Assembly (NCBI GenBank): GCA_944372505.1
Contig: CALVZK010000006.1
Span: forward strand, 1 to 59,663
DNA length: 59,663 nt
Direction: 5' to 3'
Source: an uncultured Clostridia bacterium
Lineage (GTDB): Bacteria > Bacillota > Clostridia > Christensenellales > UBA1242
Under the pieces are notes generated by a model. The model did not search any database, was not told where the DNA came from, and was given only the letters and a program-made list of their open reading frames with translations. A program made the translations under genes and the position numbers. Positions 16,129-49,806 of this stretch are shown in pieces (the stretch's first letter is position 1; the number at the start of each line of letters is the position of its first letter).

Positions 16129-16156
16129 AAAAAGGAAAGTTTTAACTTTCCTTTTT
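16129..16156. terminator. Bidirectional terminator between convergent genes
   Basis: AAAAAGGAAAGTT / AACTTTCCTTTTT form a 13-bp stem with a two-base loop. The stop codon of the minus-strand gene lies inside it. Confidence 0.8.
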
Positions 16157-19100
16157 ATTTTTGTTATTTAAAGATTTCTCTTCTTGTTTTTGATTTTTAA
16201 CTGCTTCTTTATAAGCTCTTTTTTCTAACGCAAATTCTTGTTCTTTTTCAGAAATAATAGTTTTTTGAATTGCAAGTAAATGATCAGCAGTCATACAATT
16301 ATCAATTTTTTCGTTTATTATATTTATTTTTTCATCGAGTCTGTTAATTTTTGTATTATATTGTTTAAATGATTTTTCCATTTGTTTAGAAATTTTTTCT
16401 TTATTAACAAGTCTTGATTCTTTTATAAATTCTTTATGTTCTTTCTCTAAAGATTCTTTTTCAGAAAGTAATTGTTCTTTAGCAGTTTTTAAAGAATTAA
16501 ATTCCTCATCTCTTCGTTTTTGAGCTTCATTTAATATTGCATCATGATTTATTAATAGTTTTCTATCATAAGATTCTTTTTTAATTTTATCTATTTTTTT
16601 GATCTTTACTTTTCGTAAAATAAAACCAACAATAGCAATAATTAAAGCGACAGCCATAATTATAGACGAAACTAAAAGAAGTGGATTTGTCCCTTGTTTG
16701 TTATTATCGTCATTTGCAGTGTTATCTTCATTATCGCTATCATCTTCTTCTGTTGAGGTAGTTTGATTTACTCTAAATACTCTATTATCTAACAAAGGTG
16801 AAAGACTAGCATTTTTATATTCTGTTTCAGTAACACTTGTAAAATCTAAATGAGTAATGATTGCAGTTCCAAGAGTTTCATGACAGTCTGAAACTAATGA
16901 AAATTTTATAGTAGGATTAGACGCTTCTGTAGCATGTAGATAAATTTTATAGTTCTCTAGTTGATTTGTTCCTACAATTTTTTCAACTGAATCATAACCA
17001 TCAATAGTTATAGTTAAGCCATACTTACATTCATGTTCATTATTAGAAGCATTTTCAGCTGATAAATTAAATAGGGTAGCAAGGTCGAAGGTTAACATAT
17101 AATAGTTGTCTGCTTCTAAAGTAAGAGTATAAGCTGAAGTCAATGAAGCAGTACTAGCATAAAGTGTTTGAATAACAAGTAAGTTAGCGTCCTCAACTTT
17201 AAGTGATTGATCAATATTGATGAAATAATTATCAGCTCCACTTATTAATCCAGCGACAGCGCAATCTTCAGAATCTGCCTCTGTTTTGTTTGAATCATAA
17301 ATTTGGTCAATTGAAAGTTTATAAGCAGGAGAAGAAGTTAATACATTTGAAACTGGGCCTTTATCTGTAATTGAGAAATAATAATCTGATAAGTTGCTTG
17401 TATAATGTGCTAAATTAAATGTACTTTCATCTGTGGTTTGAACAGAAAAGTTATCTAAATAAACAATTCCGCCAACTTTATTATCTTCTGTTCCCAAACT
17501 AATTTTTATATTTATATCCTGTGAGATTGTTTCTGCTGTTTTAACTATTATTTCCATATTATTCCATCTATCGAGGCTGGAAATACCTTCTTGTGAGAAA
17601 ATAGTTATACCGTTGGAATCAATTAATTCAACTTTAATTTGGGAAGGATTAAGACCAGAGAAACTATTTTGATTGTAATAATCAAAAGATATTTTGTAAT
17701 AACTATTTTTAGCAAGGGTTGTCGATGCTGAAGTGATAGATTGATAACTATTTGATTTATTTTGCATAATATAGACATTATTTGGGAGGTCGTAATCAAG
17801 AGTATTGTTTGGATTGCCTGGATATATACCTGCCCAATCATATTTATTTGCATACATTGATTTGTAAAGATCGCTATTGTAAAGATAGATAACACCACTT
17901 TCATTTAAATTTTCATTTTCAATTAAAGTAGTCCAATCGCTAGCAACCAAAGGATATTTATTATCGTCACTAAATTTTGTGGAATTAAAATAAGAATTAC
18001 TTAAAGAGGAAGGAGTTGAAGAAAAAGATAGTAGTTCAAGACTATTAGATGCGTTAGCAAAATCATCATAATTTGCATATTCAATTTCAATATTGTCAAT
18101 TACTACACAACCTTCTACATTATTATTTTCGTCGCCTAACCAAAGTTGAAGATTTATTGAACTGTCATATAATGAATGACCTTTAACATACATTTCAATT
18201 GTTTGATAATCGTTTACAAAAGAATTTTCAACATTAGAAGTAATTCCACTTATCTGACCGCTTTGAGTGGCATAATAATTATCACTACTTTCATCATCAC
18301 TTAAAATATTAGGATAATATGAATAAATATTATTGTTTTCTTGTACTTTTAAATAAAAGGAGCCAGAGCCTTGCAAATCGGATATTTTCATTTTTAATGT
18401 AACTTTATAAATAGTATGAGCTTTTATTTCTATATTTTTAGATTGTACTCCTACATACCCATCACTAGAATTTGTATATAAAATCATTGTTTGAGAATTG
18501 TTGTAAGATAAATCATCGCCAACATATGAGTATCCAGTGAGATTATAAAAGTCTGATGGTTGCATTTTAATATTTGATATTATTGCATGACCATTAGAAG
18601 TTCGTTTTATAATAGACCAACTATCGCCAAGGGTGTTTGAATCTTCCAAAATAGTATCTTCAAAATCAAAGTTATATCCTTTAAGATCTACTAAAGCTTT
18701 AGAAGATTGTAGTCCATCAACTAAAAAACACGTGGAACTATTATAATCTTCATAAGTATCAATACCTTCGTAATTGTAATTATAACAAGTCTCAAAGAAT
18801 TGATTTTCTGAATATCTTACACCTCTAATTTCATCAAAGAAAACGGCACCTGAACTTCTAGCTCCATTTGCACTGCCAAGATAAAGATCTATATTTATAG
18901 TTTGAGAGGTATCTCCTGTTGCAATAAAAATGTGATAGTCTTTCCATTGTTCTGTTAGGATATTTTCATAACCAATAGGGTCCAAAGATTTTCCGTCATC
19001 ATCTACAAGTCCGCTTACATAAATAGAAGCATTAACATTATCATCACCATTAGTAGATGTTTTTACTGAGATGGTAAAACTATAATATGAATTAGCTTCT

Positions 19101-19561
19101 AAGGTAATAGATTCAGAGCGGTAACCTTTTTGTGCGGATACATTTTGATCATTAGAATTAGTTTTAGAATTTATCATTAAAATTTTTGTATCATTTTTAC
19201 CACGTGCTCCTGGATTAGTTTCTAACATATAAGTTTTTTGATATTTTGCAAAAGTTGTGTTAGAGCCTGTTTCATCAGTGGTGATTCCAGTACCAACATC
19301 AACAAACATTCCAGTCGCTTTAGAAGAAGTTTCAATAGCACTCCAGCCAGTCAAAGAATTGCTAGCAGAAGCGAAAGAACCTTGAGTAAAAGAAGAATTA
19401 GTAATAGTTAAATCCTCTTGATAACTCTCGACATAACTGACAGTTGTAGAAGCATTTGATATATTAGAAAGACTAATTCCTCCAAACAAAGTAAAAGGAA
19501 ATAAGAAAGCTACACATAATTTTAGTAATGTATTTTTTTTATTGTTTTTTGATTTAATCAT
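16142..19561 (-). CDS. Large type I membrane protein: repeated beta-sandwich ectodomain, cytoplasmic coiled coil
   Basis: An 1139-residue protein. A signal peptide (residues about 1-38, ending SNISNAS) is followed by about 900 residues of extracellular sequence. At least four diverged modules of about 170-200 residues share a pattern: hydrophobic strand, YYxISFxxxT/Y, a strand ending in xExxVKT, INIxLxLG, then VxLDNxxx. This is the layout of carbohydrate-binding jelly rolls such as the CBM4/9 or DUF642 type. A low-complexity acidic linker (near 930-955) leads to one membrane helix (about 960-984). The cytoplasmic tail is about 155 residues, highly charged and coiled-coil (Lys/Glu rich). It is monocistronic, with a good promoter and an AAGGTGG ribosome site. 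Ligand and role are unknown. Confidence 0.8.
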   Translation of the reverse strand: MIKSKNNKKNTLLKLCVAFLFPFTLFGGISLSNISNASTTVSYVESYQEDLTITNSSFTQGSFASASNSLTGWSAIETSSKATGMFVDVGTGITTDETGSNTTFAKYQKTYMLETNPGARGKNDTKILMINSKTNSNDQNVSAQKGYRSESITLEANSYYSFTISVKTSTNGDDNVNASIYVSGLVDDDGKSLDPIGYENILTEQWKDYHIFIATGDTSQTINIDLYLGSANGARSSGAVFFDEIRGVRYSENQFFETCYNYNYEGIDTYEDYNSSTCFLVDGLQSSKALVDLKGYNFDFEDTILEDSNTLGDSWSIIKRTSNGHAIISNIKMQPSDFYNLTGYSYVGDDLSYNNSQTMILYTNSSDGYVGVQSKNIEIKAHTIYKVTLKMKISDLQGSGSFYLKVQENNNIYSYYPNILSDDESSDNYYATQSGQISGITSNVENSFVNDYQTIEMYVKGHSLYDSSINLQLWLGDENNNVEGCVVIDNIEIEYANYDDFANASNSLELLSFSSTPSSLSNSYFNSTKFSDDNKYPLVASDWTTLIENENLNESGVIYLYNSDLYKSMYANKYDWAGIYPGNPNNTLDYDLPNNVYIMQNKSNSYQSITSASTTLAKNSYYKISFDYYNQNSFSGLNPSQIKVELIDSNGITIFSQEGISSLDRWNNMEIIVKTAETISQDINIKISLGTEDNKVGGIVYLDNFSVQTTDESTFNLAHYTSNLSDYYFSITDKGPVSNVLTSSPAYKLSIDQIYDSNKTEADSEDCAVAGLISGADNYFINIDQSLKVEDANLLVIQTLYASTASLTSAYTLTLEADNYYMLTFDLATLFNLSAENASNNEHECKYGLTITIDGYDSVEKIVGTNQLENYKIYLHATEASNPTIKFSLVSDCHETLGTAIITHLDFTSVTETEYKNASLSPLLDNRVFRVNQTTSTEEDDSDNEDNTANDDNNKQGTNPLLLVSSIIMAVALIIAIVGFILRKVKIKKIDKIKKESYDRKLLINHDAILNEAQKRRDEEFNSLKTAKEQLLSEKESLEKEHKEFIKESRLVNKEKISKQMEKSFKQYNTKINRLDEKINIINEKIDNCMTADHLLAIQKTIISEKEQEFALEKRAYKEAVKNQKQEEKSLNNKNKKES

Positions 19562-19577
19562 ATTCCACCTTTTAACG

Positions 19578-19592
19578 CAAGTAAACTACTTG
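19578..19592 (-). promoter_or_regulatory. Palindrome in the 5' UTR of the 1139-residue gene
   Basis: CAAGTA-AAC-TACTTG (plus strand) is a perfect 6-bp inverted repeat with a three-base centre, lying just downstream of the -10. It could be an operator or a small 5' hairpin. Confidence 0.3.
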
Positions 19593-20835: not shown

Positions 20836-22320
20836 ATGGAAAAAATAGCAATTATTGAGTTAAATGAGAGGGGATTAGCATTATCTATTTATAAAGTATC
20901 TAATGGTAAAAGTAATCTTTCTTTAAGCAAAAATCAGTTTTTAGAAATAGGGAAGGAAATTGAATCTGCAGAGTTAATTTCCCCTAAATTAAAAAATGAT
21001 ATTCTAAATATGCTTAAAATTTATAGAAAATTAATTGAAGAATACGGTATAAATAAAATTTTTGCAGTTAGTTCTAATATTATTACGAGGGCGAGAAATT
21101 ATAGAGGGATGTTTGACGAAATCTATAATAATACTGGTCTTAATTTTACTATTCTTACAGATGAAGAATATATTAAATATTTATTTAATTCTGTTGTAAA
21201 TAGTATTGATAACGCAAAAGGAACTTTTTTACACATAGGAAGCAATGCTTGTTATATAATAAAATACAATAGGCGTGCAATTTTAAATAGTACAATAATT
21301 CCAATAGGGACATATAATTTGCAGGATAAAGTAAGCGATTTTGATTCTGTAGTAGAATCTATAAAAAAAGAAATTTCTTCAAAAATAGCAATAGAAGAAG
21401 TAGAGGAAGATAGTAAGGTTGTAGCTACAGGAATTTCTTATCTTGCAATGGGGAAAATAGCAAAAAAAGTTCAAAGATATTCTCTTGATATAGATAACAA
21501 TTATATACTTTCTAACGATATAATGGACAAAACATGTCAATTTATAAAAGGTGTTGAAATTGATAAAATTAAAAAAATTAAAGGAATAGATTATGAAAAT
21601 GCTGACAAAATTGTTTTAGGTTTTGCATTTATTAAGGCATTTTTTGAAATTTTAAAGTTAAATGAAGTTGCAATTTCTACTGCAAACTTAAGAAGCGGAT
21701 TACTACAATTAAATGTTTTAAATTCCATGCAAGAAAGATTTAATGATTTATTATCAAATTCATTAGAAAATTATTATGAATTTAACAATGATGAATTTTC
21801 TATTAACGAGCAAGTATATAATATGGCATTAATTTTGTTTAAACAATTAAAAGTAATGCATAAATTACCAAGGTTTTATGTTAAGCCTCTTAGGATTGCT
21901 TCTTATATGTACGATTGTGGGAAATGTATAAATGTAGAACATTTTACTAAATATGGTTTTGATAAAATAGTTTATTCGGATTTGGCAGGAGTAACGCATA
22001 GAGAACTATTAATTGCTGGCTTTATTTGTGTTTGCCAAAATTTAGATGATTTTTCTTTAAATGAATGGATAAAATACAAGGATATATTAACTGATGAAGA
22101 TTTAGATGCAGTAAGAAAATTAGGAATAATAGTAAAATTAGCAGTAGCATTGAATGCTTCGAGAAAACCAATTATAACTGATATTGTTTGTGATATACTT
22201 GGAGATTCTATAATAATGAAAACAATAGTTGAAACGGACGCATCATATGAAATATTAGAAGGCATGAAAGTCGCACAAGATTATAAGAAAGTTTATAAAA
22301 AGAGTTTGCAAATAATTTAA
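20836..22320 (+). CDS. Degenerate Ppx/GppA-family protein with C-terminal HD-like region
   Basis: A 494-residue protein with the overall order of exopolyphosphatase/pppGpp phosphatase proteins: an ASKHA N-terminal half (about 1-300), then an HD-type helical half (about 310-490). Recognisable landmarks are AVSSNIITRARN, NFTILTDEEYIKYLF and FLHIGSNACYIIKYN. The ATP/phosphate loops that normally read DxGSNSxR and DIGGGS are replaced by IELNERGLAL and HIGSNACY, so catalysis is doubtful. In the HD half HRELLIAGFICV keeps one His. It is co-transcribed with the ferredoxin and ends at a terminator. It could be a (p)ppGpp/polyP sensor rather than an enzyme; that is inference. Confidence 0.7.
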   Translation: MEKIAIIELNERGLALSIYKVSNGKSNLSLSKNQFLEIGKEIESAELISPKLKNDILNMLKIYRKLIEEYGINKIFAVSSNIITRARNYRGMFDEIYNNTGLNFTILTDEEYIKYLFNSVVNSIDNAKGTFLHIGSNACYIIKYNRRAILNSTIIPIGTYNLQDKVSDFDSVVESIKKEISSKIAIEEVEEDSKVVATGISYLAMGKIAKKVQRYSLDIDNNYILSNDIMDKTCQFIKGVEIDKIKKIKGIDYENADKIVLGFAFIKAFFEILKLNEVAISTANLRSGLLQLNVLNSMQERFNDLLSNSLENYYEFNNDEFSINEQVYNMALILFKQLKVMHKLPRFYVKPLRIASYMYDCGKCINVEHFTKYGFDKIVYSDLAGVTHRELLIAGFICVCQNLDDFSLNEWIKYKDILTDEDLDAVRKLGIIVKLAVALNASRKPIITDIVCDILGDSIIMKTIVETDASYEILEGMKVAQDYKKVYKKSLQII

Positions 22321-22375
22321 TTCAAGTACATGCAATTTAAAGAATCCTAAAAAATTTTTAGACTAGATAAGTTAT

Positions 22376-22415
22376 AGGGACAAATGTTAAAATAAAGTGA
22401 CCTTTGTCCCTTTTT
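22376..22415 (+). terminator. Terminator of ferredoxin/Ppx-like operon
   Basis: AGGGACAAA / TTTGTCCCT form a 9-bp stem with an 18-base loop, followed by T's. Confidence 0.75.
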
Positions 22416-22520
22416 GATTAAATTAAAAAAATTGTAAAGAGATGCAAAATAATATTAATTTTTACATAAAATAAAACAATACAATAAACATTAAAAAAAT
22501 TTTATGAAACAGGAGAAAAA

Positions 22521-23903
22521 ATGAAAAAACATAGTTGGATACAAATAGTTTTAACTTTGGTAGTAGTTCTTGCATTTTCTTTTATAGCAACTCAATTTTT
22601 ATTTCCACAAAAAACAAAAACATATTCTCAAACTTCTTGCCTTAATGATAGTATTACAGAAGACATGGATATCTTTGATATTGCTAAATTATATAGAGAT
22701 AATGCATGTGTGGCTATAAGAGTGCATGCTTATAATAATGAATCAAAATCATATTATTCATCTCAAGGTAGTGGTGTTTGTATTGCTTCCAACGGATATA
22801 CATCTCAAAGCATGGGGTACAGTGCTTTAGATGTAAAAGCTACCCAAGGAAGTTATATTGCAACCAACTATCACGTCATAAATTGGATTGAAGATGAAGA
22901 TTATTCTAAAGTAGAAATTACTGTTATTACTGAAGATGAGAATGAATATAAGGCAGAATATTTATGGGGGAGCAGTCAATTTGATGTTGCTATAATATAT
23001 ATTGAAGAAAATTTAAATTATGTAAGAATGGAAGATAGGCTTATAGATTGCAATGAAGAAAACAGATTAGATATTGAGCAGATTTTTACGATAGGGTCAC
23101 CATTAAGTTTGCAAAATCTAAATGATTTTACTGAAGGTTATGTTAGAAATAATAACTATATGGTAGAATATACAGCGGGTGTGGAGTATTATTATCAAAA
23201 TATGAGAAATTGGGAGAGCGTATCTATAGAAGATGCTTTACCTAATTTAGTTGATTATTACGAAATATATTATTTAAGCAATGTATATGAAGATGTAATT
23301 AGTATGAGTGTAGAAATAAGTCCTGGTAATTCAGGTGGCGGAGTTTTTGATTCGAGTGGTAGTTTAGTGGCTCTTGCAACATTAAGTACTGATGTTTCAC
23401 AAACAAACGGGAATCAAATAAATGGAGCGGTTGCTGTTTATCCATTAATGAAAGTTTTAGATAAAATAATTTCAAATAACGAATATAACACAAATTACAA
23501 AATTTATACTATATCTTCGATAGGCATGACAGGGCTTGACTCTAATGAGGCAGAGATATCAAAGTATTTCTATGAAGAACAAGAAATCGATTTGAATAGA
23601 GTAGGAATAAATTCATATTATTTAAATGGCTCATTATATAGTATTACTGAATATTCTGACGCATTTTCTTTTGAAGATAGCGGTTATTATATAATTTCAC
23701 AAACTAATGTAATAGATGGATTTGACAATTTAATTAAAGGTTGTATAATTAATAGTGGAAAGATAAATGATGAAAAACTTCAGACTATCAATGATAGAAA
23801 TGATTTATCATATCTTCTTTTTAATTTAAATGAGGGTGATAGTTTATTGTTAAATTATGTTGATGAAGAAGGAAAGTCTCAACAAATTTTAGTTGTTGTT
23901 TAA
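22521..23903 (+). CDS. Membrane-anchored trypsin-like (HtrA-type) serine protease
   Basis: A 460-residue protein with an N-terminal membrane anchor (residues about 8-28) and an external S1C-type protease domain. The triad is visible: H118 in ATNYHVI, D155 in SQFDVAII and S271 in SPGNSGGGVF. GSGVCIAS at about 83-90 is the usual entry strand. A poorly conserved insertion lies between that strand and the His. The C-terminal 150 residues do not show a clear PDZ domain, though IKGCIINSGKIND ... LLFNLNEGDSLLLNYV has a PDZ-like flavour. The likely role is envelope protein quality control. AGGAG precedes the ATG, and the actin-like gene follows after 19 bases. Confidence 0.88.
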   Translation: MKKHSWIQIVLTLVVVLAFSFIATQFLFPQKTKTYSQTSCLNDSITEDMDIFDIAKLYRDNACVAIRVHAYNNESKSYYSSQGSGVCIASNGYTSQSMGYSALDVKATQGSYIATNYHVINWIEDEDYSKVEITVITEDENEYKAEYLWGSSQFDVAIIYIEENLNYVRMEDRLIDCNEENRLDIEQIFTIGSPLSLQNLNDFTEGYVRNNNYMVEYTAGVEYYYQNMRNWESVSIEDALPNLVDYYEIYYLSNVYEDVISMSVEISPGNSGGGVFDSSGSLVALATLSTDVSQTNGNQINGAVAVYPLMKVLDKIISNNEYNTNYKIYTISSIGMTGLDSNEAEISKYFYEEQEIDLNRVGINSYYLNGSLYSITEYSDAFSFEDSGYYIISQTNVIDGFDNLIKGCIINSGKINDEKLQTINDRNDLSYLLFNLNEGDSLLLNYVDEEGKSQQILVVV

Positions 23904-23922
23904 ACTAAAGACGGGGGAATAT

Positions 23923-24924
23923 ATGTTAAAATATAAATATGCGATAGAAATAGGTGGATCTTATACAAAAATTTATGTTAAGGATAATGGGTTTGCTCTT
24001 TGCGAGCCTACATTAGTTGCGGCAGAGCCAACGGCACAGGGATATAAGGTTGTAGGACTTGGTTTGCAGGCTAAACAAATGTTAGGTAAAACCAATGATT
24101 CAGTAGAAGTTTTTAGTCCTATTTCTAACGGAGAGATTATAAATTATGAGTATTTAAAAGAATTTTTAATATATTGTTTTTCTAAATTAGATTTTAAGAG
24201 AAAAAGAGATTCTATTGTAGTTTTAATAAATGTTGGTTTAAACCAAAAAAATAAAGATTTATTATTATCTTTAATTTATGAAATAGGGTTTAAAGAAGTT
24301 ATGTTAATTCCTGCTGTTGTATGTTCTTTAATAGGGGCAGGGAAAAATATAAGTTCAACCAAAACGAATATGATTGTAAATATTGGAGGAGCAAATACTG
24401 ATATAGCGGTTATCAACATGAATTCAATAGTTAAAGGTGCAACATTGGGATTAGGTGGCAGAGCTGTAGATGTTGCTATAGCAAATACTGTGGCATATAA
24501 TCATGGTTTAGTAATAGGATTAGGAACCAGTGAAAAGTTAAAATTAGAAGTTGGAAGTTTATATGCAAATGACACATTAAATATGGAAGTTACAGGGGTT
24601 GATGTCGAAAGTAAACTTCCGAGATCATATATTATATCTTCAAGTGATATTTTGCCTGTTTTAGAGCCTTTCTTTGAAGAAATAGTAAGAAGTGTAGATG
24701 TAACTATCACATCTTTGCCTCCAGAACTTTCAACAGATATTATAAATAATGGTGTCTATTTTGTTGGGGGAATGAGCAAGATAAATGGATTAGAAAATTA
24801 TTTAAAAAAGAGCTTTAGATATCCATTTAAAATAATAGAAGATGGAGAAAATGTTTCGATTTTAGGTGCAGGAAAGTTACTTGACGATAATGAACTATTA
24901 AAAAAAATTTTTGAAAATACATAA
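23923..24924 (+). CDS. MreB/Mbl-like bacterial actin
   Basis: A 333-residue protein of the actin/ASKHA fold. It begins MLKYKYAIEIGGSYTKIYVKD, the phosphate-1 loop in the place of the MreB DLGTANT. The sequence PTLVAAEP ... VVGLGLQAKQMLG then follows the MreB order. The phosphate-2 region is VNIGGANTDIAVI and the connect region is LGLGGRAVDVAIAN. It is clearly diverged from canonical MreB. A role in rod shape or elongation is likely, by organising wall synthesis under the membrane. The start at 23923 has GGGGG seven bases upstream. It follows the HtrA-like gene and precedes minD; mreC/mreD are not here. Confidence 0.8.
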   Translation: MLKYKYAIEIGGSYTKIYVKDNGFALCEPTLVAAEPTAQGYKVVGLGLQAKQMLGKTNDSVEVFSPISNGEIINYEYLKEFLIYCFSKLDFKRKRDSIVVLINVGLNQKNKDLLLSLIYEIGFKEVMLIPAVVCSLIGAGKNISSTKTNMIVNIGGANTDIAVINMNSIVKGATLGLGGRAVDVAIANTVAYNHGLVIGLGTSEKLKLEVGSLYANDTLNMEVTGVDVESKLPRSYIISSSDILPVLEPFFEEIVRSVDVTITSLPPELSTDIINNGVYFVGGMSKINGLENYLKKSFRYPFKIIEDGENVSILGAGKLLDDNELLKKIFENT

Positions 24925-25004
24925 ATATTTCTAAAATATAAAATATTCATTTTGTCTAATTTAAAAATATACAAAATAATTTTAAAATGACTAAAATTGA
25001 CAAT

Positions 25005-25036
25005 AAAGTGAAGAATGTGACAATTCTTCACTTTTT
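25005..25036 (+). terminator. Terminator after the actin-like gene
   Basis: AAAGTGAAGAAT / ATTCTTCACTTT form a 12-bp stem with a six-base loop and a T run. Confidence 0.85.
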
Positions 25037-25081
25037 ATATTTAACAATATTTGATAAAATTTTAAAGTATAAGGAGAGTCT

Positions 25082-25873
25082 ATGGCGAGGAAAATTGTTT
25101 TAACTAGCGGTAAAGGTGGGGTTGGTAAAACAACGGTATGTGCAAATCTCGGAATATATTTAGCAAAGCTAGGATTTAGGGTAGTATTATTAGATGTAGA
25201 TATCGGATTGAACAATTTAGATGTAGTAATGGGAATAGAAAATCAAATTGTTTTTGATATAACTGATGTTATAATGGGTAGATGTAGACCCAAACAGGCA
25301 TTAGTTCAAGACAAAACAATTTCATCTTTATATATTTTTCCATCTACACACGCATACAATAAAACTACAATTTTGGGAGAACATATTAAAAATATAGTAG
25401 ATCAACTTGATAGCAGTTTTGATTATATATTAATAGATTGTCCAGCAGGAGTTGATGCGGGATTTGAAAGAGCAGTTTTTCCGGCAAATGAAGCAATTGT
25501 AGTCGTTACTCCACATTTATCATCAATAAGAGATGCCGATAAAGTTGTAGCATTGCTTGATGATTATAATATTGAATATAAAGGGTTAGTCATAAATAGA
25601 ATGAGAGGTGATTTATTGTTAAATGGAGAACTAATGACAATTGAAAACATAGTAAGAGCATTAAATTTGCCATTATTAGGAGTTATACCAGAAGATGATG
25701 CTATTGGATCAAGTTGTTCAATAGGCGGGAGATTACAATCTGTAGAAAGTGCAAGAGCTTTTACATTATTAAGTGAAAATATACATAATGGATCTAAAAA
25801 AATTTTTGATTGTACTTATAAATATAGGGGGCTAATGGGATATATAAAAAGAAACATTAAAAAACATGTTTAG
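25082..25873 (+). CDS. minD: Septum site-determining ATPase MinD
   Basis: A 263-residue ParA-type ATPase that binds the membrane and positions division by keeping FtsZ inhibitor at the poles. It starts with the deviant Walker A TSGKGGVGKTT (residues 8-18), followed by LDVDIGLNNLDVVMG and the DCPAGVDAGF switch II. The C-terminus (LMGYIKRNIKKHV) is a basic amphipathic helix matching the membrane-targeting sequence. AAGGAG sits before the ATG. A MinE-like gene follows after 12 bases; minC is not in this window. Confidence 0.96.
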   Translation: MARKIVLTSGKGGVGKTTVCANLGIYLAKLGFRVVLLDVDIGLNNLDVVMGIENQIVFDITDVIMGRCRPKQALVQDKTISSLYIFPSTHAYNKTTILGEHIKNIVDQLDSSFDYILIDCPAGVDAGFERAVFPANEAIVVVTPHLSSIRDADKVVALLDDYNIEYKGLVINRMRGDLLLNGELMTIENIVRALNLPLLGVIPEDDAIGSSCSIGGRLQSVESARAFTLLSENIHNGSKKIFDCTYKYRGLMGYIKRNIKKHV

Positions 25874-26149: not shown

Positions 26150-29100
26150 TTACTTTACTTTTGTCCAACTACCGTTATTCGCTTGCCATTCTTCAAATGG
26201 AGCATATTGATATGAAGATATAAAATTATAAAAACTTTCCATATCTATGCTTTCTTCATAGATAATAATTGATGTATTGTTGCTTGACATAGTTAAAGAT
26301 ATATTGCTACTTAACGGCATGTAAAGACTAAATGAAATATTTTTAATATAATTTTTACCTTGATTATCATTTGAAATTTCTAATGATAAATTGAAATCAC
26401 CTAAAATATCGTTACCTGTAATTTCTGCCATATTTAATACAAAATTGTAAGTAGAATTATTAAAACTAAAACCAATTAATACATTAGCCCAATTAATAAA
26501 TTTTTGCCCATTGTTCATGGAGTTATTTATGGAGTCCATAATATTATCTTGTAAACCTAGACAATATTGAATATAATAACCAATATTTTGTAATAGGTGA
26601 GAAAGGGGTATTTTAGTAGTTTTCTCATAAACTCTAGATGAAGCACCAAACATTATACTTACCCTTTCTGTTCTATGAAGATAAACATAACCATCTTTGT
26701 AATAAAAGTATAAATGTCTATTGTAACCTCCATCAGTATCGCCAAATTGATAAGGTACATCATTATTTACCCCATTAATAACAGGTATATTTTTAATTTC
26801 TCCATAAATTTCAAATTTGCCATTTTCAACGATTTTCATATAAATTTTATAATATACTTTATAAGAAATGTTTATCCCAATAATATTTCCTTTAATATTT
26901 AATGTTCCGGTAATAAGGAAATAGTTTTTATTGCTCATATTAACAACTGATTTAAGGATATCGTTAATACCAGATATATCATAGTAATTAAGATTTTTAT
27001 CTAATTTACTTATATAAGAAAAATAGTTTACAGAGATAGAAATACTTAAAATATCTGTTAAATTATCATCGCTGTATAGATTTTCAATTAAAATTGTGCT
27101 AACTCTAGAACCATTGCTTATAAATGAAATTGATAAATCTTTTGCATTTGGGTTATTATAAATTTTCGTTCCATCAAAAGTAATAATAAAGTTATAGGTG
27201 TCGATTTTTAGAGATTTTATATATGAAATAAATTCAACTACGTTTTCAGTTGCCATATCAGTTAAGAAATTAAAGTTAGATTGAATACCAGAAAAATCCA
27301 AATCTAAATTTATATCATCAAAAATTCTTAAAAATGATGTGTTTATTCCAAAAGAATTTAAAAGGATATATATGGATTGTTTAAATGAAGAGTTGTTCAT
27401 TTTAAGAAGTAAACCATTTAAGTTGAAATATGACCAATCATTTTCTGTATACATTTTAAGGTTCATTTTTTCGACTGTATTAGAGTAAATAGTTCCCCCA
27501 AATTGGAATTGATTTTTCAAATCAAACTGAAAGTTGCCATAAACGACTTGATCATTTATATTAAATGTTAATCCCAAGTCAAATTGTTTTTTAGAAAGAA
27601 AATCTACAAGTGTATTTAAAAGATTCATTGCATCGCTTAATTTTGAATATATACCTACTGGAGATACATATACTTTGTCTTGTAATAAATTAACAGAAAT
27701 ATTTAGGCTTTTATAATTGATAGAAGCACTATAGTTTTTATTATTAGTTAAACAAATACTTATAAATAATTCATTATAATTTAAATCAATTGATGTGTTA
27801 TCTATTTTAAGAGTCAATGAGTTTAAAATTTTTTCAAGGCTAAAAATATTATTAAAGAATTCCGGTAAATAAGTTAAAATATTAAAATTCAAATAATTCA
27901 TAGTAAATTGATTTAATAAATTTAATTCATTTAAACCAAATTGTAATTTTATATTATTATAAGATAAAAAAATAGAATTTTGATAAAATATTAGCTCAAG
28001 ATTTAAATCATTTTTTGAAATATTTAATAAAACGGAAATATTTTTATTCTCATAATTTAAATAACCATTTATTGCATATTCATTGAAACTACCAGAGATT
28101 TCCAAGTTTATGGAGTCTTCTTTTATATAGTTATAAATATTACTTATATGATCTAAAAGGGAACAAATATTAGTATAGCTTTGGATATTTGGTTTAGTAA
28201 ATAGTAATACATTATTAGAGGTAAAAAAATTTGTATCAATAATAAAATTATCAGTTTTTATTTGTATTGAAGCATCTAAATTATTAGTAGAAAATGAGAA
28301 ATAAAAATTATTTAAGGTTTTAATTATAAAACCATTTTCGGTAGGAATAATTTGATTTATAAAAGGATCGTTATTATTTGTATTGATTAATTTATCTAAT
28401 ATTTGAAATATGACTTCAATATTTAAATTAATATTAAAAGTATTTGAAATAAATTGAGTAATTTTGTCAATATCATTTATAGAAAAATATAATTTTGTAT
28501 TTGAATAATCGATATAGAAAGTATTTTCAAAGTAGGTAATTGATAAAACTTGTGAACTTAAATATAAGTTGAATTTAATTATGAAATTATTATTTGTAGA
28601 AATTTCATAATCAAAGTTGAAATTTTGGTTTTTTATGTTTATATTTCCATTTCCATAAAGAAAATCGTTAGAGATAATTTCAGTGAAATTTTGAAGAGTA
28701 GGGATAATAACATCTAATGATAAATATTTTTCTGTGTTTAAAATATTTATTTTTTCAAATTCATTAATAGATAAATTTAAATCGAATATGCCATCTATCT
28801 GCAGACTATTGAAGCCATATTCATTTAAAGTAAGTTTAGCGATTGCTAAATTATCAATTTCAATTTCTAAATAATTTTCTTTTGCAATTAAGTTTTTAAG
28901 AGCAAAGATATTAAAATTTGAAAAATTAAATTCATTAAAATTTATTAGTTTCAAAGCATTTGTTAAATTTTTAGTTTTAAGACAATCGTAAATTAAAAGA
29001 ATTTGGTCTAATGGTATATTGAGTCCTATGTTATTTTGAATTGTATTTGAAAAATCTAAAATTTGATTTAATGAAAATTTAACAAAAATGTTTTCATAAT

Positions 29101-31675
29101 TTAAATAGATTATTTCATTTTTTATATAAATTAAAATTTTTTGATTATTTATATTTAAAGATATCTCAAACATATCATTAATATAATCAATTTTAATTTC
29201 AGAATAGATTTCTAAATTTTTATAATTTAGTTCTAAGTTAAAAGCAATTTGCTCTTGAGAAATTGAATTAAAGGTTTTACCAATTATTTCAATGATATCA
29301 GTTAACTGATTATAATTATTAAAATCAATTTCTTTTATCGAATGATAATTATCAACTATATTTAATTCACAATTAAAATTTGAATTTAAAATTGTAAATT
29401 GATATAAATAATTATTTTCAAAATTCAATTGAAGAGTAAAATTTTTATTGCAAATAGAAAAAGAATCGTTTGTAAAATACACATTAGAATTTTCCAAAAT
29501 ATATTGTAAGTTTTCTATAGAAATAATAGAGGTTAAAAATTCTGTTATTTCTTTAAATTCTAAGCCAAAGTATTCTTTTAGATAGTTTTGGAGTATATCA
29601 ATTTCATTTATAGAAAAAGCAATTTTTGCTTCGTTAATATTAAAATATATAACATTATCTTTTAAATATAAGAATGCTTCATTATTCGTATTATTAATAA
29701 TATTAATTTGAGCAGTAATGTTATTATTATTAATATCTATAAAACCATCTAGAACAATGTCATTGAAATTTGCTTTGAGATCAAAATAGTGATTTTCATT
29801 AACAAAAGATTTTAATAAATTATCTAATATAGGGAAGAATGAATTTAAGGCATCATAATCATTTGTATCAATATTCGGTTTTGTTAATAATTCATCACAT
29901 TTTGATATTGTACCAGAAATTTCAAAAATATCACTTGAAATAATTAACATCAAAGAATTGTCCAAATTTTGAATTTCTATATTGATATTTTTTGTTTGAA
30001 CTATAAATCCGTTTTCTGTTTGTACAAGATTTTCAATTAAATTTGTTTCTGAATTAAACAAACTGAATATATAGGTAGACACTGTATAAATTTGGTTAAA
30101 TACATTTTCAGTTTGTAATATTTCATTTAAGTTTGAATAAAGTTTTAAATTTGCGATTTGTAAATAAATATTTTTGTCTATAAGGTTAACATCAATTGGC
30201 AATCCTAAAATATTAGTTTTTAAAGTAGCGAAAATATCTTCTTTTAGATTTAAATTAAATTTTACAGGAACATTAATTCCTAGAATATTAAGATTAAAAT
30301 TTCCAGTTAGTTGGTTTTCTTTTAAAAGGTCATAAAGGGTTTCAATTGTTGGGATAAATTTGACAAAATCTACATAATTAGAGAGGTCTGTTTTAAGATT
30401 AATTTCTCTAGTAGGGCAACTATTAAAATTTAGGTCGAAGTTAGCATTTGTGATGGATAAATTACTAAATTTATTATTTTCAGTAGTTAAACTTATATTG
30501 CCAAGATCTTCAATAGTAATAAATGTTGTGTTCCCTTGGGTTACGATATTATTCAGGAATGAAAAATCAAGCTTTGATAGATTTAAATCATTTAAGTTAA
30601 AATTTATCATATTAAAAACATTAATAAAGTTTTCAATATCTTTATTTTGAATTGATGAGATTATATTGATTATTAATTCTTTAGGCAAAGAGATATTAAA
30701 AGTCTTATTGAGTAAATTATTTAATTTATCAATATCATCTAAATTGAGAGAGATATATAAATTGCCAATTTCGGCATATAAAGTGTCTTTTAAAAATAAA
30801 AGATTTATTTCATTATCATTAAGATTAAAAGATAATTTTGTATTAAGTGTTGAAGGTTCAAAATCTAATGTACCTTTTATAGGAGTATTATAAATATTTG
30901 CGGTAAAATCCAATGAAATTACATTTTTAGATAATAGGTCAGTAGCCCCAACTACTAAATTTGTTATATTGGTATAATTTTCAATATTTTTATTAATTTC
31001 TATATTTTGAGGATATTCAATATTTCCATGCATTGATATAGAAAAATTATCATTTATTGCAAATGTAGGGACATTAAATTGTTGTAAATTATATTTCAAA
31101 TCTGTAATAAGATTTAGTTTTCCTAAAAAAGGGACATCTATTTCTAATAAAATATCATTTTTGTTTTTTGTTTCAGTTAGATTTTTTAGCATTAATAAAA
31201 TATCATTAATGTTCATGGTTGATAAATCAAGTCCAACAAAATCAAAAATAGAGTTTAAAATCTGTCTTAAAGGTTCTTCAATTTTATCATATTCAAAATA
31301 AACTTTATTATCTTGAATTTCTAAATAAATATTTTGATTTAAATAAGCAAAATTTAAGTTAAAACTTTCATTTTGTGAAAGTATATTAAAATTTCCTTCT
31401 AATTTTAAATCTTCATTATCTTTGGGTATATTAGTTTTTGCATCTAATGAAATAATTGAAGATGAATCATTATTATTAATTTCAATTTGAAGATCTAAGT
31501 TCATATATTCACTAGATTGTAAGTTATTAACTATTTGTGTAAGCTGATAAGGAGCAGATTCTGATTTATTTATAGAGCCATTTTGAAGAGATGAAGAAAG
31601 TTTTATAGTACCAAATGCAGATGCTACAGAAATTAACATATATAAAATTGTGTATAAAAAAATTTTAGCTTTCAT
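26150..31675 (-). CDS. Giant anchored repeat protein (1841 residues, about nine diverged repeats)
   Basis: Unrecognised. One hydrophobic N-terminal segment (residues about 4-23, IFLYTILYMLISVASAFGTI) acts as a signal peptide or anchor. The rest is about nine tandem, strongly diverged units of roughly 180-200 residues. Each unit opens with a helix (pattern Y/F-x-x-I-x-x-L-x-x-L/I) and continues with alternating short beta strands. A recurrent piece reads roughly (I/V)YLxxxNxKxxFSLNEI, for example in DKNIYLQIANLKLYSNLNEI. The composition is extreme: Asn, Ile, Leu, Phe and Ser dominate, and Cys and Trp are rare. The last unit differs and carries an aromatic and basic insertion. The strand-rich repeats resemble LolA/LppX-type half-barrels, which is only an impression. 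It follows the 383-residue anchored protein by nine bases with GGAG inside the gap. A secreted structural or lipid-binding role is a guess. Confidence 0.7.
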   Translation of the reverse strand: MKAKIFLYTILYMLISVASAFGTIKLSSSLQNGSINKSESAPYQLTQIVNNLQSSEYMNLDLQIEINNNDSSSIISLDAKTNIPKDNEDLKLEGNFNILSQNESFNLNFAYLNQNIYLEIQDNKVYFEYDKIEEPLRQILNSIFDFVGLDLSTMNINDILLMLKNLTETKNKNDILLEIDVPFLGKLNLITDLKYNLQQFNVPTFAINDNFSISMHGNIEYPQNIEINKNIENYTNITNLVVGATDLLSKNVISLDFTANIYNTPIKGTLDFEPSTLNTKLSFNLNDNEINLLFLKDTLYAEIGNLYISLNLDDIDKLNNLLNKTFNISLPKELIINIISSIQNKDIENFINVFNMINFNLNDLNLSKLDFSFLNNIVTQGNTTFITIEDLGNISLTTENNKFSNLSITNANFDLNFNSCPTREINLKTDLSNYVDFVKFIPTIETLYDLLKENQLTGNFNLNILGINVPVKFNLNLKEDIFATLKTNILGLPIDVNLIDKNIYLQIANLKLYSNLNEILQTENVFNQIYTVSTYIFSLFNSETNLIENLVQTENGFIVQTKNINIEIQNLDNSLMLIISSDIFEISGTISKCDELLTKPNIDTNDYDALNSFFPILDNLLKSFVNENHYFDLKANFNDIVLDGFIDINNNNITAQINIINNTNNEAFLYLKDNVIYFNINEAKIAFSINEIDILQNYLKEYFGLEFKEITEFLTSIISIENLQYILENSNVYFTNDSFSICNKNFTLQLNFENNYLYQFTILNSNFNCELNIVDNYHSIKEIDFNNYNQLTDIIEIIGKTFNSISQEQIAFNLELNYKNLEIYSEIKIDYINDMFEISLNINNQKILIYIKNEIIYLNYENIFVKFSLNQILDFSNTIQNNIGLNIPLDQILLIYDCLKTKNLTNALKLINFNEFNFSNFNIFALKNLIAKENYLEIEIDNLAIAKLTLNEYGFNSLQIDGIFDLNLSINEFEKINILNTEKYLSLDVIIPTLQNFTEIISNDFLYGNGNINIKNQNFNFDYEISTNNNFIIKFNLYLSSQVLSITYFENTFYIDYSNTKLYFSINDIDKITQFISNTFNINLNIEVIFQILDKLINTNNNDPFINQIIPTENGFIIKTLNNFYFSFSTNNLDASIQIKTDNFIIDTNFFTSNNVLLFTKPNIQSYTNICSLLDHISNIYNYIKEDSINLEISGSFNEYAINGYLNYENKNISVLLNISKNDLNLELIFYQNSIFLSYNNIKLQFGLNELNLLNQFTMNYLNFNILTYLPEFFNNIFSLEKILNSLTLKIDNTSIDLNYNELFISICLTNNKNYSASINYKSLNISVNLLQDKVYVSPVGIYSKLSDAMNLLNTLVDFLSKKQFDLGLTFNINDQVVYGNFQFDLKNQFQFGGTIYSNTVEKMNLKMYTENDWSYFNLNGLLLKMNNSSFKQSIYILLNSFGINTSFLRIFDDINLDLDFSGIQSNFNFLTDMATENVVEFISYIKSLKIDTYNFIITFDGTKIYNNPNAKDLSISFISNGSRVSTILIENLYSDDNLTDILSISISVNYFSYISKLDKNLNYYDISGINDILKSVVNMSNKNYFLITGTLNIKGNIIGINISYKVYYKIYMKIVENGKFEIYGEIKNIPVINGVNNDVPYQFGDTDGGYNRHLYFYYKDGYVYLHRTERVSIMFGASSRVYEKTTKIPLSHLLQNIGYYIQYCLGLQDNIMDSINNSMNNGQKFINWANVLIGFSFNNSTYNFVLNMAEITGNDILGDFNLSLEISNDNQGKNYIKNISFSLYMPLSSNISLTMSSNNTSIIIYEESIDMESFYNFISSYQYAPFEEWQANNGSWTKVK

Positions 31676-31684
31676 TATTTTCTC

Positions 31685-32836
31685 CTAAAAATCAAATAAA
31701 AATTTTGTATTTAATGTACCAGTACACTTTGCTCCCATTGAAAATTTTACAGCTGTATATTTTTCTACAGTATCAATTGAAATAAAATTCCAATTTTCAT
31801 CAATAGTAATAGTCTGTTCAATAGAGGTAAATACAGGATCTGTTTCAAGTCCGCCAGAACGTTTAACTTGTTTATAATAGTTTAGTACACTATAAATAGG
31901 GTGTAATTGAAAAATAAAAGAATATGTTCCATCATTATTTTTTATTGTTGTTGAAGATTCTTTATTTATTATAGTTGACTCTGAAATAATGTATGGATTG
32001 ATAGTATTAACATAACTTCCTGTAAGTTCTTTGTACTCTTCAGAAGTTAATGTTTTTTCTGCCTCCCATGTTGCCGACATTGACCCGTCATCATTAGTTA
32101 TAATAGAAGAGCCTGTACTTAAATAGACAATGTTTTCGCCCTTATTCATCTCTTCTTTTGTCGCCACTTTAACAAGTCCTACACTAATGCTTTCAAAAGA
32201 ATATTTTTTTCCATCAAACGTTTTAGCACTATAAATTGTTTGAGAAGCAATAGTTGATACCATTCCATTTCCAATTGCAGCATAAGATTTTGAATTCTCG
32301 GCATTGTATAAAGCCAAAAGATAATTATCAAGCACATTTAATCGGGTAGACAACGGATCTATGTTTTGTGATTTTGCAATTTCAAGGAAGTTAGATTTAT
32401 CATTTTCATTATTTATTCCCAGTTTTGCAAAGGTGGTGTTAACATCTGGCAAATAATCACTAACTAAATAATTACTATAAATAACAGTGCTTTTTAAAAC
32501 AGCGTTAAAGTACCATACACCTAATCCACTTCCTGTAAATATGGCAAGAATTAATAAAATAGCTAATGCCCTTATGTTTTTTTTAAAAGTACCTTTTTGA
32601 TATTCTCTTTCTTCTAACTCATTTTTAAGTCTTTGTTTTTCTTTTTCTAATTTTTCTTTTTCTTTTTGTGATAGGAGTTTCTTTTTCTTCATAATTTTAG
32701 ATAGCTTTTTGTTTTTGTAAGTATAAAAAAAACATCCAAAATTATCCACATAAAAAGAGAGACTTTCTTTAGAAGTTAAAATTAAAGTCACATCAGTTAG
32801 TTTAATTATATAATCATTCTGCTTTTTATTAGTCAT
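31685..32836 (-). CDS. Membrane-anchored protein, partner of the giant repeat protein
   Basis: Unrecognised, 383 residues. I chose the ATG at 32836 because GGGGTG lies seven bases upstream; an in-frame GTG sits at 32845. A later ATG at about 32692 (MKKKKLLSQKEK) is possible but has no ribosome site. A cytoplasmic Lys/Glu coiled-coil stretch (residues about 50-85) leads to one membrane helix (LAILLILAIFTGSGLGVWYF, about 92-111). About 270 external residues follow, with mixed alpha/beta content and no catalytic motif I can see. Its stop codon abuts the GGAG of the giant gene, so the two are translated together. A roughly 205-base leader with stable hairpins precedes it. Confidence 0.72.
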   Translation of the reverse strand: MTNKKQNDYIIKLTDVTLILTSKESLSFYVDNFGCFFYTYKNKKLSKIMKKKKLLSQKEKEKLEKEKQRLKNELEEREYQKGTFKKNIRALAILLILAIFTGSGLGVWYFNAVLKSTVIYSNYLVSDYLPDVNTTFAKLGINNENDKSNFLEIAKSQNIDPLSTRLNVLDNYLLALYNAENSKSYAAIGNGMVSTIASQTIYSAKTFDGKKYSFESISVGLVKVATKEEMNKGENIVYLSTGSSIITNDDGSMSATWEAEKTLTSEEYKELTGSYVNTINPYIISESTIINKESSTTIKNNDGTYSFIFQLHPIYSVLNYYKQVKRSGGLETDPVFTSIEQTITIDENWNFISIDTVEKYTAVKFSMGAKCTGTLNTKFLFDF

Positions 32837-32845
32837 GTTATGCAC

Positions 32846-33050
32846 CCCGAAAAAGGTTCAGCATACATACCTATTTTTGTCGTAGTTCAATATATTTATA
32901 TGTATACATGGCTTGTCCATGTGAATAAATCTAGAAAATTTAAGGAGTGGTCTAAAACGACTAAAACGGATATGTTAGTGAATCCTTAAATAGAATTCTT
33001 GCCTAGCATGGCTAGGTCAACCCCTTAACTATGTAGTTTATACCTACATC
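32846..33050 (-). ncRNA. Structured leader or small RNA of unknown class
   Basis: Transcribed from the consensus promoter at 33082-33054. In RNA order from the 5' end there are four structures. First is an ATGTAG/CTACAT hairpin with a seven-base loop. Second is a 9-bp long-range stem, TTAAGGGGT with ACTCCTTAA. Third, inside that stem, is a CCTAGC-CAT-GCTAGG hairpin and a GGAT/ATCC stem. Fourth, after it, is ACATGG-ACAAG-CCATGT. No terminator is seen before the coding region, so it is probably a 5' UTR, although processing is possible. I could not match it to T-box, lysine, cobalamin, SAM, SRP, tmRNA or RNase P sequence signatures. Candidates to test are 6S RNA, the raiA motif or an undescribed element. 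Confidence 0.6.
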
Positions 33051-33053
33051 AAT

Positions 33054-33082
33054 ATTATATAATATAAATAATAAAGTGTCAA
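33054..33082 (-). promoter_or_regulatory. Perfect consensus sigma-A promoter of leader/giant-protein unit
   Basis: On the minus strand TTGACA (33082-33077) and TATAAT (33059-33054) are separated by exactly 17 bases. It is the only fully consensus promoter I found in the window. Confidence 0.85.
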
Positions 33083-33177: not shown

Positions 33178-33212
33178 AATAATGTAACAAACTGATGTAC
33201 CAAGGAGAAAAA

Positions 33213-33863
33213 ATGGAAAAAGAAAATTACGATTACGAAAGATTAATTGATATAGAAATGTACTCAAAAGATATAAAAGAAAGTTTTATAGAAGGAACAG
33301 AAGAAAGTGAGTTTTGGTATTTAATTAATAGTTATTTAAAGATTTTATATCCTTCCTTAAAGGAAGAACTTGATAATAAAATAAGAAATGTAATAAAATC
33401 ATCTGAAAAGTTTAGCAAATATTTTAATAAAATAGATAATAATAAAGCAATTGAGGAATATTTGAAACTGATAGATAATAATGTGATAATAAAACATGAA
33501 AGTTATGATACGATAATCAAAAAGTTGGCAACTTCTGTTATATCTAATACGATTGAAAAAGGAGAAATAAGCAAAAATTCCGGAATAAACAATTTGAGAA
33601 CTTTATATAACGGAGATATTGAATTATTCAATGAAACAGATAAATCTTTAACAGAAAATTTTCTAAAAATAATTGAACAAAATGCGGGAAAAAGTGGTGT
33701 GGAAAAAGCCTTGCAATATGCTCAAAAACAAGCAGAAATCGTAATAGAAGATAAATCTAAATATTATGAAGATGTTGTAAAATATCTAGTTGGATTTTAT
33801 GCAAATGTTGGATTAGCTAAAATTCAAGAAATGGAAGAACAAGGAATTGTTGAAAGTGAATAG
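33213..33863 (+). CDS. Unknown acidic helical protein
   Basis: A 216-residue soluble protein with no family I recognise. The start at 33213 is chosen because AAGGAG lies six bases upstream; an earlier in-frame ATG at 33195 is on the wrong side of it. It is rich in Glu, Lys, Ile and Asn, probably mostly helical, with no Cys, no membrane segment and no catalytic motif. It is divergent from the leader/giant-protein transcript. It stands alone, and the next promoter (for rplM) begins 38 bases after its stop. A regulatory or partner role for the neighbouring unit cannot be shown. Confidence 0.65.
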   Translation: MEKENYDYERLIDIEMYSKDIKESFIEGTEESEFWYLINSYLKILYPSLKEELDNKIRNVIKSSEKFSKYFNKIDNNKAIEEYLKLIDNNVIIKHESYDTIIKKLATSVISNTIEKGEISKNSGINNLRTLYNGDIELFNETDKSLTENFLKIIEQNAGKSGVEKALQYAQKQAEIVIEDKSKYYEDVVKYLVGFYANVGLAKIQEMEEQGIVESE

Positions 33864-36024: not shown

Positions 36025-36052
36025 AAAAAAATCCGCATTTTGCGGATTTTTT
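36025..36052. terminator. Bidirectional terminator between trxB and degV
   Basis: AAAAAATCCGC / GCGGATTTTTT form an 11-bp stem with a five-base loop between convergent genes. Confidence 0.9.
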
Positions 36053-36881
36053 AAAAGCATATTATAAGCCCTTTTTCTAAAGCATAATAAGAACATAGTC
36101 CTCTCATTGGTAAAATTTGTATTTCTTTAAAATTACAATTTTTTTCCAAATCATCTTTTATTTGATTTGCTTCATTTTCAGCAAAGCAATGTGTGATAAT
36201 TAGTTTATTTTTAGAAAAATCTTTTGCTTTTTCTTTTATCATTTGGACTAATTTTATAAAGCAATTTTTTATTCCAATAATCTTTTTTGCCATTTTAATT
36301 TCGCCTTCATGAGCAATACATATAGGTCTGATAACCAAAGTACTTGCAATAAGACCAGCAATTCTGCTCATTCTTCCATTGTTAACTAAATTGTCAAATT
36401 TTTGCAAAATGAAGTAAAGGCTACGTTCTTTAGTGTATTTAGTTATTTCATTTTGGATTTCCTCAAAAGAAATACCACTTTTAATAAGTGAAACAAGTTT
36501 TTCTACTATTAAAATTTCTGTACCACTACATTGTTTTGAGTCGATAACAAAAATATTTTCTGGTTTTGAATAAGAATTTTTAGCCACGCAAGCAGAATTA
36601 TAACTTCCGGATAATTTAGATGTTATCGTAACTATAAAAGTGTATTTTGCATTATCAAATTCTTGTAAAAAAGATTGTGGGGCAGGACATGCACTTGAAT
36701 TCTTTTTTGAGGCATGCATATCTTCAAGCATTTGTTTACAATCGAGTTCATCGTTGTCTACATATTCTTTTTCATTGACATTGATAGTAAGAGGAATAAC
36801 TTTAAATCCAATTTCTTCATCTTCAATAAAGTTGTTTTTTAGGTCACTTGCACTATCAACAAGTATTTGGTATTCTTTCAT
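36051..36881 (-). CDS. DegV-family fatty-acid-binding protein (FakB type)
   Basis: A 276-residue cytosolic two-domain protein. Members bind a fatty acid and present it to the kinase FakA for phosphorylation. The start ATG at 36881 has GGAG six bases upstream; an in-frame ATG four codons earlier overlaps that site. Motifs are VDSASDL (residues 7-13), the ligand-site loop TITSKLSGSYNSA, and IDSKQCSGTEIL, with KFDNLVNNGRMSR in the C-terminal domain. The usual length is about 280. FakA is not in the window. Confidence 0.93.
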   Translation of the reverse strand: MKEYQILVDSASDLKNNFIEDEEIGFKVIPLTINVNEKEYVDNDELDCKQMLEDMHASKKNSSACPAPQSFLQEFDNAKYTFIVTITSKLSGSYNSACVAKNSYSKPENIFVIDSKQCSGTEILIVEKLVSLIKSGISFEEIQNEITKYTKERSLYFILQKFDNLVNNGRMSRIAGLIASTLVIRPICIAHEGEIKMAKKIIGIKNCFIKLVQMIKEKAKDFSKNKLIITHCFAENEANQIKDDLEKNCNFKEIQILPMRGLCSYYALEKGLIICF

Positions 36882-37059
36882 ATTTTTCTCCATTTATATA
36901 CATATTCAAATTTAAAATAATTTATAACAAAATTGAATAAGATAAACTTTAAGTTATCAAAACAAGTATAATATCTTTTTAAAAAAATTCAAAGCAAATG
37001 TCAATACAATTTTTTTTAATTTTGCTTTTTATTAAAAATTTTGTCGAAAAACAAAAAAA

Positions 37060-49733: not shown

Positions 49734-49806
49734 TTTTCTAGTAACAAATTAACAAGTATACAAATAAAAAAAATATTGTCAATGATAAAAATAAGATGGA
49801 GGGAAC

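Follow-up and report, generated by a model that had tools for sequence, protein, structure and literature searches.

In a gut bacterium with a small genome, a two-gene minus-strand operon combines a strong, conserved promoter with a covarying, pseudoknotted leader RNA and two proteins, A and B, that from their predicted folds appear to belong with the LolA/LprG/RseB carriers. We read the operon as encoding an array in the cell envelope for the capture of lipids or fatty acids, with the leader giving translational control, and put the probability of this reading at about 0.45. The window referred to below is the whole stretch of DNA that was analysed (59,663 nucleotides, from an uncultured Clostridia bacterium of the UBA1242 lineage); its relevant features are collected in Table 1.

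Table 1 Features of the A-B unit and of two further lipid-related genes in the window.
Feature	Position	Strand	Basis
Sigma-70 type promoter, TTGACA-N17-TATAAT, perfect	33054..33082	-	sequence scan; conservation across loci
Structured leader RNA	32837..33047	-	model R1 match 32833-33030, 149.2 bits (window is a seed member); covariation
P1 5' strand, UUAAGGGGU	33020..33028	-	covariation on both leader alignments
Inner hairpin CCUAGC-CAU-GCUAGG (window species, at the place of the P2 region)	33002..33016	-	read from sequence; single-sequence fold
Inner hairpin, P3 region	32980..32998	-	single-sequence fold; covariation
Pseudoknot 5' strand	32957..32976	-	duplex -16.9 vs shuffled mean -7.0, 0/200 shuffles as good; partner-swap test
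P1 3' strand, ACUCCUUAA	32940..32948	-	covariation on both leader alignments
Hairpin CAUGG-ACAAG-CCAUG	32907..32921	-	CG/UA exchange at one pair across species (helix 5)
Pseudoknot 3' strand	32865..32883	-	duplex test; partner-swap test
Terminal hairpin pairing A's Shine-Dalgarno GGGGUG (32843-32848)	32839..32865	-	covariation analysis (helices 7, 8)
Protein A, 383 aa, ATG 32836 to stop	31685..32836	-	ORF; AlphaFold2 model; Foldseek
Protein B, 1841 aa	26150..31675	-	ORF; AlphaFold2 model; Foldseek; domain HMM
B domain 1	30977..31549	-	B-domain HMM
B domain 2	30440..30985	-	B-domain HMM
B domain 3	29864..30385	-	B-domain HMM
B domain 4	29315..29866	-	B-domain HMM
B domain 5	28787..29323	-	B-domain HMM
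B domain 6	28178..28735	-	B-domain HMM
B domain 7	27755..28186	-	B-domain HMM
B domain 8	27080..27658	-	B-domain HMM
DegV/FakB-family protein	36051-36893		
Acyltransferase-family (PlsC-like) protein	49795-50415		

A two-gene unit behind a strong and conserved promoter

The unit was confirmed as promoter, leader, A and B, and the open reading frames gave the two protein sizes originally predicted. Across 36 related loci, with the 17-nt spacer, the promoter matched the consensus at 12 of 12 positions in 21, at 11 in 14 and at 10 in one; among 2000 random 480-nt stretches of the window, a 12/12 site occurred in 10 and a best site of 11 in 29. By this computation the promoter is strong and conserved. 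The original prediction had held it to be the only perfect consensus promoter seen in the window; the site stands, but not its uniqueness, a second perfect match being present at 23722 (+) within a trypsin-like protease gene (22521-23903), about 170 nt ahead of an MreB-like gene. Genes for Ppx/GppA-like, trypsin-like protease, MreB-like and MinD-like proteins follow one another at 20836-25873 (+), convergent with the A-B unit, and adjoin it in the nearest relatives too. Two other reading frames of the window have no Pfam match: a protein of 1147 aa that has a hydrophobic stretch at its N-terminus (16142-19585, -) and a 222-aa ORF divergent from the unit (33195-33863, +).

The first stop codon had been described as abutting the GGAG of the second gene, with coupled production. 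In the window, the TAG of A indeed overlaps AGGAG and the ATG of B follows 9 nt past the stop. Among 34 loci, however, the gap between the stop of A and the start of B was at most 31 nt in 24 and 62-437 nt in 10, and tight coupling is therefore usual but not general.

The 36 loci, all from MAGs titled uncultured Clostridia, Clostridiales or Firmicutes, were found by an alignment scan with the single pattern TG[SVC][GW]LGxWY[FYK], which misses species with a changed pattern; since the loci were picked by it, conservation of this pattern in alignment A3 is an effect of the search. In 34 of the 36, B comes after A; in the remaining two, L084 and L087, the contig breaks off inside A. A single-sequence search detected A in 28 of 61 relatives, while profiles detected A in 90 and B (first 600 residues) in 83 of 112 genus genomes: both in 81, A only in nine, B only in two and neither in 20. 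Four of the nine A-only genomes (G001, G008, G171, G195) have a B-like array beside A that the profile missed; such arrays adjoin A at L053, L049, L111 and L112. In the whole order the A profile matched 70 of 297 genomes, and in 40 of the 70 the match falls in an open frame of 1006-6238 aa. Retained in this count are six matches (G096, G146, G187, G198, G243, G304) confined to roughly profile positions 17-143, which resemble hits to a coil or a membrane helix.

Predicted folds of proteins A and B

Protein A has a charged N-terminus, a single hydrophobic helix (around residues 90-110, as read from the sequence) and an outer domain with an LprG-like predicted fold. Its ATG fits the relatives, GVHxM running across the start in the window, L003, L006 and L007; an alternative upstream GTG would add three residues. 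The AlphaFold2 model, built with 37 sequences, had a mean pLDDT of 84.2 and a pTM of 0.71, with ten-residue blocks of 87-98 from residue 121 onwards. All five Foldseek matches in the PDB at E <= 0.001 were LprG (probability 1.00, TM by target 0.40-0.44). A DUF2207_C match (E 0.0015, below cut-off) was disregarded; it covers the lysine-rich N-terminus as far as the hydrophobic helix.

In protein B, an N-terminal hydrophobic segment is followed by eight detected tandem LolA/LprG-like domains and by about 300 C-terminal residues unmatched by the domain HMM. This HMM spans 180 positions; three domains of the window B served as its seed, and it was iterated over 35 B proteins. It found 3-12 copies in 25 complete B proteins of 736-2943 aa. 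From 26 further loci, 77 ORFs of 500 aa or more were searched with it, and the 21 that matched are all giants. Other families of the order carry 5-16 B-type domains, some of them low-scoring (L030, L100, L101, L102, L106, L113). The open frames at L100 (G236) and L101 (G165), 6238 and 5888 aa long, have A-type matches, and the sequenced pieces examined hold 16 and 15 B-type domains, respectively. Two giants, L052 (2184 aa) and L103 (3374 aa), are recognised by the A profile and missed by the B-domain HMM, so arrays of A-type domains may exist apart from those of B-type domains. The HMM matched none of 37 A proteins, which places the domain of A on a separate branch.

A model of B residues 1-612 (35 sequences; mean pLDDT 78.2, pTM 0.62) matched RseB (best E 2.7e-5), LolA (3.3e-5), LprG and LprF with probabilities of 0.99-1.00 and TM by target up to 0.55; laminin, a DNA clamp and a few other entries appeared at low probability. 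For both proteins the fold matches are distant, with about 10% identity and an rmsd of about 8 A. Sequence searches of solved structures returned weak unrelated matches (best E 1.4 for A and 0.45 for B), and Pfam and NCBIfam gave no consistent family for A or B, the window proteins having no at-cut-off match to a family of known function. The profile and structure searches proposed at the outset thus gave no credible relative by sequence and a match to the LolA/LprG/RseB carriers by predicted fold, and the proteins stay unassigned by family, as had been claimed. On fold comparison, A and B probably belong with these carriers and share their half-barrel.

Both proteins had been called anchored. 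A, with its hydrophobic helix, probably is; in B, the N-terminal hydrophobic stretch, modelled at pLDDT below 50, could be an anchor or a cleaved signal peptide.

Along the strands of the B model, greasy and polar residues alternate (3.96 vs 2.07; none of 2000 shuffles scored as high). Since many beta proteins have amphipathic strands, this pattern is no proof of lipid binding. The strands of A lack such alternation (1.45 vs 1.46; 1000 of 2000 shuffles as high), which counts against the lipid reading and is in keeping with its main rival, a surface fibre built on the same fold. Here B would be a fibre or adhesin in which the LolA-like unit is a stiff brick and repeat number sets length, A would be its base or export partner, and the reduced-genome cell would attach to partner cells or mucus. 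The variation in repeat number among complete B proteins, as in many surface proteins, also suits a fibre, as do the partner dependence suggested for UBA1242 and the many hypothetical membrane-bound proteins mentioned in PMC12306168. We nevertheless consider a fibre somewhat unlikely, the best-matched fold class being largely one of lipid or lipoprotein carriers. Moreover, adhesins usually have mixed domains, whereas all B domains seen by the HMM are of one kind.

A covarying, pseudoknotted leader RNA

The original prediction gave the leader as structured and roughly 205 nt long; it is about 211 nt, assuming a transcription start 7 nt past the -10 box, and it covaries across relatives. Folded alone, the 207-nt stretch 33046-32840 reached -45.8 kcal/mol (z -2.29), and 4 of 200 shuffles were equally stable or more so: the single-sequence signal is modest and the comparative signal strong. 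The aligned leaders have a common stem P1 (UUAAGGGG with CUCCUUAA) with variable hairpins inside, a hairpin CAYGG-ACAAG-CCRUG, a conserved ACAUAUA...CUGAA and a terminal hairpin on the Shine-Dalgarno sequence of A. When 15 leaders were aligned with plain MAFFT, 0, 6, 0 and 0 of 500 shuffles came up to four of the five covariation measures, while the measure of further pair types gave no signal (319 of 500 as high). On the R1-fitted alignment of 27 sequences, which leans towards the structure, both-sided changes occurred at 30 of 47 pairs and none of 500 shuffles reached any of the five measures; the covariation score, 0.227, fell to at most 0.058 when the partners were slid by 1-3 columns. The columns of helix P6 hardly vary. 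The leader thus has the conserved secondary structure with compensatory change by which a cis-regulatory structured RNA is recognised.

The two pseudoknot strands lie just ahead of the 3' half of P1 and after CUGAAUAU, respectively. Many species pair UUUUGAC with GUCAAAA and, in addition, CAUUUGUC with GACGAGUG; the window species spells the strands differently, and they are still complementary. Leader by leader, at most 5% of 200 composition shuffles gave as good a duplex in 17 of 22 cases, a further five of the 27 leaders being left out for segments that were too short. Duplexes were weaker when partners were swapped between species: of 5000 permutations, none was as good for 20 sequences and one for the 16 left after four near relatives were dropped, the own partner ranking anywhere from 1 to 16 of 20 and thus not always best. 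In an alignment not fitted to the pseudoknot, 76-86% of its cells were paired, with both-sided changes at 4 of 15 pairs. A hairpin P4 (GUCAA/UUGAC), suggested by the single-sequence fold and contained in model R1, was dropped from the final reading because the longer pseudoknot, favoured by the comparison, takes the same 3' strand and competes with it. By computation, the leader is a covarying, pseudoknotted RNA whose last hairpin pairs the Shine-Dalgarno sequence of A.

Model R1 had one match in its own genome at E up to 10 and, with stricter filters, one match in each of 28 of the 112 genus genomes. In all 28 it shares strand and contig with A and is just upstream of it, between 12 nt inside and 309 nt before the profile-matched part of A. 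At gathering score, Rfam gave only a tRNA for the window and nothing for 11 loci; relaxed thresholds gave weak, chance-like matches for the window leader and, up to E 1, none for L064 and L075.

Among the window and its 36 related loci, R1 matched 27, of which 15 form its seed. The order of leader, A and B expected from the outset therefore holds in most loci but not in all, the RNA being missing from ten that still keep A (L065, L069, L071, L073, L081, L083, L086, L087, L088, L089). A second, shorter leader type with GAGUGG ahead of the start of A was seen in eight of these (L069, L071, L073, L081, L083, L087, L088, L089), and an upstream CCAC could pair with the GAGUGG in L071, L083, L087 and L088; in L069 the motif precedes an earlier ATG of A than the start first picked. 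Two outcomes had been named as fatal to the original prediction, namely relatives in which RNA, A and B never occur together and described-function families for both proteins; as the parts co-occur and no such pair of families was found, neither came about.

In eight loci (L060, L061, L063, L064, L074, L080, L082, L084) an ORF of 60-70 codons extends from beyond the P1 5' region to 13 nt into A. In the seven compared, frame 0 is stop-free while the other frames contain many stops, and length differences are multiples of three. The leader might therefore act through translation of this ORF, by coupling or attenuation, instead of by sensing a ligand. We hold this to be doubtful, since 21 pairs showed no synonymous excess (76 synonymous vs 233 nonsynonymous single changes; 108 vs 242 in another frame), the eight loci are related, and the same scan found no long ORF in the window species or in the other 28 of the 36 loci. 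A selected peptide is likewise unsupported, synonymous changes not being in excess. From the reading frames, we read translation through the leader as tolerated or used in that subclade.

Lipid supply and comparison with known systems

A ketoacyl-ACP synthase was found in none of the 112 genus genomes by a search that was positive in 14 of 14 controls, while FakA was present in 110 (103 over cut-off) and PlsY in 106. With the synthase absent and FakA and PlsY near-universal, membranes in the genus are most likely built from outside fatty acids, and the window bacterium appears unable to make its own. This pattern agrees with PMC12306168, in which UBA1242 (Christensenellales), with reduced genomes, is said to be without lipid synthesis and dependent on partners. 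Order-wide, a strong synthase match occurred in 7 of 70 genomes with an A-type domain and in 54 of 227 without (Fisher p 0.011, uncorrected for relatedness; 19 of 80 synthase rows set aside as weak partial matches), which ties the A-type domain only weakly to a loss of fatty acid synthesis.

In a lipid-capture array, A and B would both be exported, with at least A staying anchored; each B domain would hold an acyl chain in its half-barrel, the domains would together make up a brush or relay across the cell wall, and A would sit at the membrane as base or acceptor. Because the cell cannot, it appears, make fatty acids, lipid arriving at the membrane would feed FakAB, PlsY and PlsC. The leader would switch translation of A, and of B where the gap is short, between Shine-Dalgarno-paired and open states. 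Lipid binding, the direction of transport, the role of A and the signal of the RNA are inferred; the reading as a whole has several lines of support: the A-B order, the covariation and pseudoknot of the leader and its place upstream of A in 28 of 28 genomes; the LprG, LolA and RseB fold matches and the strand alternation of B; and the lack of a synthase alongside FakA, PlsY and the DegV/FakB-family and PlsC-like proteins of the window. Of the two guesses originally offered, a secreted structural assembly and a lipid-handling apparatus under RNA control, the second fits these results best, with its function still an inferred one. Against lipid capture count the 20 genomes with neither A nor B by profile, which also lack fatty acid synthesis, the seven order genomes with both a strong synthase match and an A-type domain, the weakness of the order-wide association, and the lack of a transporter in the A-B operon; the distance of the fold matches and the ten loci without the RNA weigh against the array and its RNA control.

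We know of no outer lipid layer in these cells, and this counts against the weakest alternative, export. That the A-B pair carries lipids or lipoglycans to the surface, as mycobacterial LprG does with Rv1410, is improbable: LprG is the top fold match of A and carries triacylglycerides outward (PMC10576003 and PMC4709180), but no MFS or other transporter is encoded in the operon and a cell without fatty acid synthesis needs import more.

Little is understood of how lipids get through the thick wall of bacteria incapable of fatty acid synthesis, and the genes, a domain model and a folded RNA are now available for testing such passage. Giant proteins in several families of one bacterial order have gained a likely fold, and the leader is a single-target RNA whose signal could be sought. 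The fold class was already known; the literature covered, with most subscription papers and all preprints outside its scope, contained no description of a tandem LolA-domain giant protein or of such an RNA.

Among known systems, the mycobacterial lipid-binding lipoproteins LprG, LprF and LppX (PF07161, LppX_LprAFG) resemble the predicted folds of A and of the B domains. In contrast to them, the window sequences are below recognition (A and B unmatched by PF07161 at cut-off, with one of 35 B pieces matching at E 6e-4), B strings many domains in one chain, and no partner transporter accompanies them. The N-terminus of window B (MKAKIFLYTILYMLISVASAFGTIKLSS) has no lipobox cysteine, nor any cysteine in its first 60 residues, and A has its charged N-terminus and internal hydrophobic helix in place of a lipoprotein signal. 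LolA, LolB and RseB of diderm bacteria, whose fold is matched by B, are single- or two-domain proteins, whereas the arrays described here are long and occur in Clostridia.

The bridge-like lipid transfer proteins VPS13 and ATG2, with their repeating beta groove (PMC7613979), are alike in idea only, as long chains of lipid-holding units; B has another fold, and any continuous groove in B is hypothetical. A bacterial counterpart of these proteins on a different fold would be a wall-spanning lipid relay of 3-16 LolA-like pockets, built after the loss of fatty acid synthesis and set by a new pseudoknotted RNA class that reads lipid or membrane state; in this full form we regard the proposal as unlikely. 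Finally, the leader resembles riboswitches and other structured 5' leaders in its covarying, pseudoknotted fold with a hairpin on the ribosome-binding site, and differs from the known ones in having no Rfam match and in occurring as one copy per genome, with one target operon.
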